Shown here piece after piece: positions 5,385-6,741 of a stretch of 21,494 bases of DNA; position 1 is the stretch's first letter; each line of letters begins with the position of its first letter. Source of the stretch: a virus. Both the position numbers and the translations under genes were made by a program. The notes below the pieces were generated by a model. That model did no database searches. It was not told the origin of the DNA and was given only the letters and a program-made list of their open reading frames with translations. Location: positions 1 to 21,494 of the IMG/VR virus record IMGVR_UViG_3300025168_000798; one strand, 5' to 3'.

Positions 5385-5551
5385 AACAGGTAAGATTAGA
5401 AGCCCTCAAGTTGGCGAGTCGGCTTGAGGGTGTGACCGCTGATAATGTCCTCGCTGTGTCAGAATTGTTGGCGCAGTATATTTCTGCTGGACCGAAGGTG
5501 GTAGAGTTGGATAAACTGAAGCGTAAACATATTAACAGAGGTGAGAAGTAA
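5381..5551 (+). CDS. Small helical protein upstream of the capsid gene
   Basis: The predicted protein has 56 aa, starting MKQVRLEALKLASRLEG and continuing as two probable helices with a basic C-terminus (KLKRKHINRGEK). The ATG overlaps the scaffold stop (ATGA, 5381-5384) and the TAA overlaps the next ATG (TAATG, 5549-5553). The gene is therefore locked into a coupled chain, and this is the main evidence that it is real. Small proteins with a LEALKLA...V...A..L pattern occur at this place in other podoviruses, but I know no assigned function. It may take part in capsid assembly. Confidence 0.65.
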   Translation: MKQVRLEALKLASRLEGVTADNVLAVSELLAQYISAGPKVVELDKLKRKHINRGEK

Positions 5552-5658
5552 TGCCCTATGGTCCCGGTACTTACGGTTCAAAAGTTGGAAGACCTGCATC
5601 TAAGCCAATGGCTAAGAAAAAGCCGGTCGTGAAGAAATCATCACCAAGGAAAAAGTGA
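5551..5658 (+). CDS. Very small Lys-rich protein with MPYG.GTYGSK.GRP motif
   Basis: The predicted protein has only 35 aa: MPYGPGTYGSKVGRPASKP followed by a strongly basic tail with 10 Lys or Arg among the last 16 residues. I recall that short proteins beginning MPYG.GTYGSK.GRP recur near capsid genes of marine podoviruses, which argues it is not a chance frame; a search would settle this. The GRP segment followed by lysines looks like an AT-hook-type or general nucleic-acid-binding tail. Packaging with DNA, or binding the scaffold or the structured leader RNA just downstream, are speculative roles. The start overlaps the stop of the preceding 56-aa gene. It is the last gene before the 216-base non-coding leader. 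Confidence 0.65.
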   Translation: MPYGPGTYGSKVGRPASKPMAKKKPVVKKSSPRKK

Positions 5659-5702
5659 TAAAGCAGGTTTAGCCTTAATGCACATCAGAACGCGTAAACC
5701 TG

Positions 5703-5732
5703 TTGCATTACCGTTACACCTGTGCTCATAAT
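5703..5732 (+). promoter_or_regulatory. Possible sigma70-like promoter in capsid leader
   Basis: TTGCAT at 5703-5708 and CATAAT at 5727-5732 are separated by 18 bases. The -10 matches five of six consensus positions, but the -35 matches mainly in TTG. A promoter here would give the capsid gene its own transcript starting near 5739. Weak: single hexamer matches like this arise by chance. Confidence 0.25.
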
Positions 5733-5830
5733 GCCACAAGCACACCATAGTGGTGTCGAAAGGGAAACCGCCGATAACCCGCAAGGGCCGGTTATAAAAC
5801 CTTAGTAGTGGCCCCGAAGTTTTCGGACAA

Positions 5831-5867
5831 GCCTTCCAGCTTTTTGTTTTAACCGACATAGGAAGGC
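5831..5867 (+). promoter_or_regulatory. Hairpin sequestering the capsid ribosome binding site
   Basis: GCCTTCC (5831-5837) is the exact reverse complement of GGAAGGC (5861-5867), separated by a 23-nt T-rich loop. The 3' arm contains the strong Shine-Dalgarno AGGAAGG (5860-5866) of the capsid gene, whose ATG is at 5875. In the paired state the ribosome site would be masked, so this could gate or time capsid translation. Confidence 0.5.
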
Positions 5868-5874
5868 AAATCTC

Positions 5875-6741
5875 ATGTCAAATGAAGTCTTAGACTGGTC
5901 AGTAATTGACTACAAGTCTACTGTTGAGCACCTGCTTCAACAGCGTGGCTCCAAGCTGCGTGGGGCTGTCATGGAAGACAGCTATCACGGTAAGTCTGGC
6001 GCTGCTGTTAATCAGCTAGGTGCAGTAACCGCCGTTGCCAAGACTACGCGCCACGGTGATACCCCATTGATTGAGACTCCCCAGGATAAACGTTGGGTCT
6101 TCCCAACGGATTACGAATGGGCCGATTTGATTGATGACCAAGACAAACTCCGCATCATTGCAGACCCGACCTCGCCTTACGCCATCAACGGCGCTATGGC
6201 TCTGGGCCGCGCAATGGATGATCTCATCATCACCGCTGCGACGGCGACCTCGCTGACTGGTGAAGATGGAACGACTTCTACAGCTTTCCCCGCCGGGCAG
6301 ACCGCCGGGACAACCGCTGGTGGCCTCACGGTTGCCAAACTGCGTGAAGCCATGCAGTTGCTTATTGCGGCTGAAGTCGATGTGGACAATGAGCCTCTGT
6401 TCTGCGCTATTGGCGCTCAACAGCATGACGATCTACTTGGCGAGACTCAGGCAGTTAGCTTGGATTTCACCAACAAGCCCGTCTTGGTTGATGGACGTAT
6501 CAAAGCCTTCATGGGCTTTAACTTCATCGACAGCCAACGTCTTACTCTCTCTGGCACGGATCGCACGGCAATTTGCTGGGCGAAATCGGGCCTTCACCTT
6601 GGCATCTGGAATGATATCAATGTGAACATCTCTGAGCGTGCCGACAAATCTTATTCGACACAGGTCTATGTCAAAGGAACCTTTGGCGCTACCCGTGTAG
6701 AAGAGCAAAAAGTCGTCGCAATCACTTGTTCGGAGGCCTAA
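5875..6741 (+). CDS. Major capsid protein
   Basis: The 288-aa shell-building protein probably has an HK97-type fold, though on the short side. Visible landmarks are an N-terminal arm (residues 1-40), a variable region with G/T-rich loops near 125-145 (TSLTGEDGTTSTAFPAGQTAG), a helical stretch LTVAKLREAMQLLIAAEVDVDNEP (about 148-172), and a C-terminal strand segment YVKGTFGATRVEEQKVVAITCSEA typical of phage coat proteins. It sits after scaffold and before a decoration-type protein, the BPP-1-like order. The ribosome binding site AGGAAGG is eight bases before the ATG and can be masked by a hairpin. A long structured leader precedes it. No N-terminal propeptide or protease is evident, so the scaffold is probably a separate chain only. 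The family call is likely; the fold is inferred. Confidence 0.88.
   Translation: MSNEVLDWSVIDYKSTVEHLLQQRGSKLRGAVMEDSYHGKSGAAVNQLGAVTAVAKTTRHGDTPLIETPQDKRWVFPTDYEWADLIDDQDKLRIIADPTSPYAINGAMALGRAMDDLIITAATATSLTGEDGTTSTAFPAGQTAGTTAGGLTVAKLREAMQLLIAAEVDVDNEPLFCAIGAQQHDDLLGETQAVSLDFTNKPVLVDGRIKAFMGFNFIDSQRLTLSGTDRTAICWAKSGLHLGIWNDINVNISERADKSYSTQVYVKGTFGATRVEEQKVVAITCSEA

Follow-up and report, generated by a model that had tools for sequence, protein, structure and literature searches.

The genome around the DNA analysed here (the window, 21,494 nt, IMG/VR record IMGVR_UViG_3300025168_000798) is podovirus-like, with PHROGs matches to a terminase, a portal, a scaffold-like protein, a capsid and tail tubular proteins, and it raises the question of what occupies the 216-nt gap between the end of a 35-residue ORF at 5658 and the ATG of the capsid gene at 5875. 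The major capsid gene (phrog_3437; 5875–6741, + strand) was identified by a PHROGs match with an E-value of 2e-84, and its product is 43–50% identical to its closest named relatives, most of which are HTVC010P-like SAR11 phages. No + strand ORF of at least 50 amino acids is present between 5658 and 5875. The basic 35-residue ORF just 5′ of the gap (5551–5658; MPYGPGTYGSKVGRP...KKSSPRKK) encodes a candidate small basic protein.

A first-pass annotation, made from the sequence alone, had claimed that this gap lacks a + strand gene and is rich in inverted repeats, and both claims held. Our repeat search found 11 inverted repeats of at least 6 nt in the gap, and the arms at 5742–5747/5751–5756, the GCAA hairpin at 5778–5787 and a 7-bp arm over the Shine-Dalgarno (SD) sequence at 5831–5837/5861–5867 were all recovered. 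The claim that the whole of 5659–5874 is structured held only in part, as the conserved RNA covers only ~5738–5874 and excludes 5659–5736. Folding energy against dinucleotide shuffles, one of the checks proposed with the annotation, was better than the shuffles but borderline, with z of −2.1 for the entire 5659–5874 (4/200) and −1.8 for the core 5737–5874 (12/200). Such a modest value (z about −2) proves little when taken alone, and it would have missed the conserved RNA.

Architecture and covariation of the marine-type leader

Relatives were sampled as 80 viral contigs carrying a capsid homologue of 81–100% identity. We aligned 49 distinct leaders with MAFFT by sequence only (alignment A1), with a structure model of 27 pairs. 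The relatives share a structured block that begins where the RNA begins and runs as far as the start codon of the capsid gene. In the window this marine-type leader spans 5738–5874 on the + strand, where the covariance model R1 matches 5737–5875 with 128.9 bits.

The leader opens with the 5′ strand AAGC of helix P0 (5738–5741), whose partner lies at 5839–5842 and for which 84% of the aligned cells are paired. P0 is the weakest helix, and RNAalifold favours a different partner; compensatory cases were seen by eye in L018 (UAGC/GCUA) and L078 (UAAGU/ACUUA). The P1 hairpin ACACCA/UGGUGU (5742–5756) is 98% paired, with double changes in three of its five pairs. P2 (5762–5764, partner 5800–5802) encloses P3 and P4 and shows double changes in all four pairs of the model helix. 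The P3 strand GCCG (5770–5773) pairs with 5789–5792, with double changes in three of four pairs, one of which is double-changed in 22 sequences. Between P3 and P4, the AUAA at 5774–5777 faces the single C5788 in an asymmetric internal loop (motif A), which was identified by a motif finder run against shuffles. The P4 hairpin CCC-GCAA-GGG (5778–5787) is 95% paired with double changes, and its tetraloop itself is unconserved among relatives.

The joining segment AGUAG (5804–5808) is nearly invariant in the alignment and precedes the second hairpin. The GGC of P5a (5810–5812) pairs with 5831–5833, and the pair types vary among relatives. C5813 faces ACAA at 5827–5830, forming a mirrored copy of the motif A loop (motif B, by the motif finder), and the P5b hairpin CCGAA/UUCGG (5814–5826) follows, supported by covariation. 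RNAalifold without a supplied model recovers P1, P2, P3, P4 and P5b in the marine leaders.

Across A1, 91.9% of the cells are paired and 17 of the 27 pairs show changes on both sides, in 92 such cells. The slid controls on the same alignment reach only 24–50% paired and 7–19 double-change cells. In a phylogeny null, with columns simulated independently on the FastTree tree, the maxima were 11 pairs and 48 cells, and none of 200 simulations reached the observed values.

A promoter-like element at the 5′ edge

Farther upstream the relatives show no evident sequence similarity; TTGC and an AATAAT-like block are the first shared features, starting ~37 nt 5′ of the RNA. In the window, these correspond to a −35-like hexamer TTGCAT (5703–5708, + strand), supported by the positional conservation of TTG[CA], and a −10-like hexamer CATAAT (5727–5732, + strand), which was located by eye and belongs to the conserved AATAAT-like block. 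TTG[CA] occurs 36–38 nt 5′ of the AGC of P0 in 34 of 38 marine leaders (4.8 of 38 expected from shuffles) and 41–44 nt 5′ of it in three more, 37 of 38 in total. A generic sigma-70 consensus scan gave nothing significant, only the positional TTGC test being positive, and a search for a terminator found none. The promoter is likely though unproven; a sigma-70-like promoter at the TTGC would begin the transcript at the 5′ edge of the RNA, with a predicted start at ~5738–5740, so that ~5738–5874 would form the 5′ end of a capsid mRNA transcribed from its own promoter-like element.

Within 5659–5736, conservation is limited to the TTGC and the −10-like positions. An imperfect inverted repeat of 19 nt (79%; 5664–5682/5704–5722) flanks the −35-like element, and a perfect 8-bp repeat (5664–5671/5695–5702) lies near it; these may be a local operator or chance, and the surrounding upstream sequence is not kept in relatives. 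In HTVC010P, the first leader hairpin overlaps the 3′ end of the annotated upstream ORF.

Divergent leaders share a duplicated internal loop

Divergent relatives, the HTVC010P group among them, were collected in three scans, the first of which used a Manatee Spring podovirus capsid as query; the full set comprises more than 600 HTVC010P-like stretches. We use "soil type" as a convenience label for the first divergent set, and habitats were not checked contig by contig. With this reservation, phages of soil and fresh water as well as the HTVC010P group of pelagiphages carry divergent versions of the leader in front of related capsid genes. These leaders differ strongly in sequence, and R1 detects the soil-type leaders only weakly and fails to detect the pelagiphage leaders.

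The common architecture was first spotted by eye and then tested. Its core consists of two hairpins and one internal loop, 5′-G-RNAA-N-3′ opposite a single pyrimidine plus C, where RNAA belongs to the 5′ strand of the first hairpin (motif A) and to the 3′ strand of the second, SD-adjacent hairpin (motif B). With strict stems, motif A was found in 31/39 marine (79%), 42/57 soil-type (74%) and 18/18 pelagiphage leaders (100%), against 5–8% of shuffles, and motif B in 38/39 marine (97%) and 39/57 soil-type leaders (68%), against 2–3% of shuffles. Both motifs occur together in 77% of the marine leaders and in none of the shuffles. The strict finder missed motif B in the pelagiphages, in which P5a carries a mismatch; the alignment there shows P5b paired. 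Among the 22 leaders of a more distant group, that around L144, the strict finder accepts only 8 and 6.

The pelagiphage leaders, which include one (L268) whose capsid is 100% identical to that of HTVC010P, are paired in 98.1% of cells and show double changes in 11 of 18 pairs, compared with at most 3 in the slid controls; the RNAalifold structure agrees with the model. The soil-type leaders show double changes in 13 of 17 pairs, and the sequence alignment mis-registers some of them.

The identity of the first RNAA base is correlated with that of the facing pyrimidine, A standing opposite C and G opposite either C or U (Fisher p = 1.2e-5, uncorrected for relatedness). Isosteric wobble pairs, A-C and G-U, would fit this pattern, an inference only. 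By eye, both loop copies change together in some distant leaders, to AUUA in both or GNAG in both (L360, L362, L368; L354, L372), which possibly suggests that one partner reads both loops.

An extra hairpin with a GAAAGA- or GAAUAGA-like loop lies between motifs A and B in soil-type and pelagiphage leaders (L150–L229; L138, L140–L142) and is missing in the marine type. The capsid leaders of Alteromonas phage ZP6 (L147) and Vibrio phage 1.182.O (L146) look structured and are not obviously the same RNA; that of ZP6 contains two similar GGTAGCCA..TAGG stretches after a TTGACA/TATAAT-like element.

Linkage of the leader to one capsid lineage

R1 finds a single copy of the leader directly 5′ of the capsid gene in all 91 testable loci and nothing comparable elsewhere (587 kb). 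A DNA pattern for the 3′ hairpin matched 59 stretches in IMG/VR, 58 of which sit 10–50 nt before an ORF for the same capsid, and the distance from P5 to the ATG is mostly 34–55 nt. Of the 39 soil-type pattern matches with enough downstream sequence for the test, 37 are followed by the same capsid family; the two exceptions look like chance. The pattern matches in L101 (the 92nd source in the R1 search), L232 and L248 were judged to be chance. The soil-type matches include two bacterial genome bins, an alphaproteobacterial MAG (L230) and a Bacteriovoracaceae MAG (L231), which carry the same leader and capsid and represent a prophage or a co-binned phage.

The genes directly 5′ of the leader differ among relatives, with an extra gene of 414 residues in L041, L042 and L044 (L041, 1572–2816) and another of 165 residues in L078 and L080 (2314–2811). 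The leader stays immediately before the capsid gene despite these differences and thus travels with it. The capsid leader is a conserved RNA structure that contains a duplicated loop and is linked in cis to the capsid gene.

One might instead invoke inverted repeats arisen by chance, or conservation of a coding region, given the weak folding energy and a minus-strand ORF of 72 residues (5641–5859) that lies antisense to the leader. That ORF is probably no gene, since relatives match it only in short pieces, some with stops. The loop lengths of the RNA vary freely among relatives, and covariation is present in three groups, so this explanation is all but excluded. The search for covarying pairs in homologous leaders, the other check proposed with the annotation, was clearly positive in these three groups. 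This comparative result is the decisive evidence, the compensatory changes of the marine type lying far above shuffled, slid and phylogeny-simulated controls. Its claim of a new cis-regulatory capsid leader RNA is supported by the conservation and covariation, and the regulation itself is still inference.

Predicted pairing of the Shine-Dalgarno sequence and a putative switch

The strand GCCUUCC (5831–5837) not only closes P5a with GGC 5810–5812 but also matches the capsid SD sequence GGAAGGC (5861–5867) with full complementarity, so it can serve either as the P5a 3′ strand or as an anti-SD. Among relatives, P5a occurs as GGC/GCC, GGG/CCC, AGG/CCU, GAC/GUC, GAG/CUC, AGC/GCU and GCC/GGC, and many such variants come with a matching third change in the SD region, giving triples such as GAC/GUC/GAC, GGG/CCC/GGG and AGG/CCU/AGG. 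An alignment-free permutation of the shared strand against the SD region gave p = 5e-5 at every redundancy level, from 91 down to 55 leaders, and p of 0.0004 to 0.003 per group. When the SD helix was counted on the sequence alignment, no excess over shuffles was found. The SD pairing is less secure than the aptamer-like part because the alignment-based count is neutral and its support comes from the permutation only.

In the unconstrained fold of the window without ligand, the SD helix has a pairing probability of 0.98–0.99, and the conserved fold is 8–11 kcal/mol less stable than the SD-helix fold in the nearest-neighbour model. For this reason the conserved fold would need stabilising. The energy models omit tertiary contacts, and the relative stability of the two folds is uncertain. 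The two folds are completely exclusive where the SD helix uses only GCC (e.g., L020 and L076); in some members, including the window, exclusivity is partial and UUCC/GGAA could persist alongside P5a.

The simplest reading of the model is a default OFF state that opens the SD when the conserved fold is stabilised; this is predicted, not observed. In one fold, P1, P2–P4 and P5 would form with the twin RNAA/pyrimidine loops, the GCC being occupied in P5a and part of the SD left free. In the other, GCCUUCC would pair with GGAAGGC and hide the SD. Interconversion would be driven by something binding the twin loops, and both the interconversion and the binding are inferred. The leader is thus likely a new cis-regulatory RNA whose two competing folds expose or hide the capsid SD. 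Control of capsid translation is strongly suggested, in the absence of expression, probing or binding data.

Two other explanations are much less favoured. In one, the leader needs no trigger and acts as a stability element, its hairpins shielding the 5′ end of the mRNA, or as an RNA thermometer that opens as the temperature rises. The position of P1 near the predicted 5′ end and the SD inside a helix in the model speak for it, but it leaves unexplained the conserved unpaired RNAA/Y loops, the AGUAG and the second helix competing for the anti-SD strand, and we consider it very unlikely. In the other, the leader is a put- or EAR-like element for processive antitermination, by which RNA polymerase would be modified to transcribe the long late operon. 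A structured RNA does open the transcript leading into the capsid and tail genes; however, such an element needs neither a fixed position relative to the capsid start codon nor co-variation with the SD, and the window does not match the EAR family of Rfam. This possibility too is highly improbable.

Comparison with known RNA families

Neither the window nor 20 related loci of other types gave an Rfam 15 match at the gathering cut-off, and the sub-threshold matches were at chance level, the best being ArcZ with 15.3 bits against a cut-off of 66. The claim that the leader contains no known riboswitch, ribozyme or ribosomal-protein-leader core was therefore upheld by Rfam. A DNA-level search in named phages gave short chance matches only, and the capsid leader RNA is undescribed in the open-access literature that we searched (subscription papers were outside that search).

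The leader satisfies the riboswitch criterion of a conserved 5′ leader structure with compensatory changes. Like translational riboswitches with SD sequestration, such as SAM-II and preQ1, it is a structured conserved 5′ leader in which one strand is predicted to be common to a domain helix and an anti-SD helix. Unlike them, it exceeds no gathering score, is confined to one phage capsid family, has two identical internal loops and has no known ligand. The coat operators of the ssRNA phages MS2 and Qbeta are hairpins beside a structural gene with conserved unpaired purines, as is seen here; the capsid leader differs in coming from a dsDNA tailed phage, lying at the capsid's own start, measuring ~135 nt, carrying two loop motifs and lacking binding data. 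Ribosomal-protein autoregulatory leaders (S15, L20, L1 and others) also precede a highly expressed structural gene, and the L20 leader also carries two sites, but no Rfam leader was matched and the gene regulated here would be a phage capsid.

Among structured RNAs of marine phages, manA, wcaG and PhotoRC-II were found by comparative genomics and are tied to metabolic or photosynthesis genes (PMC2864571), whereas the capsid leader has no Rfam match and precedes a capsid gene. The OM43 phage Melnitz carries a glutamine riboswitch of the known glnA class, associated with tmRNA (PMC9004378). There too a phage that infects streamlined marine bacteria carries an RNA of the riboswitch kind, though not one associated with a capsid.

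Candidate triggers

A phage structural protein (capsid or scaffold) that times capsid synthesis is the candidate trigger that we favour, because phages of very different environments share the capsid lineage and the same loops. In the absence of binding data, it remains a leading guess that may well prove wrong. The strict link to one capsid lineage across environments likewise points to a partner encoded by the phage rather than to a metabolite of the host, without proving it.

A metabolite riboswitch, in which a small host or infection-dependent metabolite binds the internal loop(s) and frees the SD, remains possible, with ligand binding being inferred. The loops are conserved and aptamer-like, and a predicted alternative helix would sequester the SD. 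Against it, no Rfam riboswitch was matched, and the testable pattern matches precede one capsid family, apart from three exceptions that look like chance; known riboswitch classes usually accompany several related genes.

Autogenous repression, in which surplus capsid or scaffold protein binds the RNA and stops capsid translation as the coat proteins of ssRNA phages do, would agree with the strict linkage to the capsid gene, and the twin loop sites fit a dimeric binder. However, the loop-bearing fold frees the SD in the model, so binding would activate rather than repress. The direction is undecidable from these data, no binding data exist, and we regard this version as unlikely.

Significance

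A bolder reading, to which we give rather less than even credence as a whole, is that the leader belongs to an undescribed, widespread RNA class. With it, dsDNA tailed phages, the HTVC010P group of SAR11 phages among them, would sense one of their own assembly proteins or an infection-stage signal. The twin RNAA/pyrimidine loops would do the sensing, and synthesis of the major capsid protein would be timed or capped at translation. As a marker RNA, the leader can help to find further members of this capsid lineage, and synthetic biology might use it as an orthogonal switch. It also raises the concrete, testable question of which partner binds the twin loops. The amount and timing of the most abundant protein of tailed phages are usually credited to promoters and gene order. 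If true, an RNA switch conserved in phages of sea, soil and fresh water, the HTVC010P pelagiphages among them, would place a new control point at the capsid gene.
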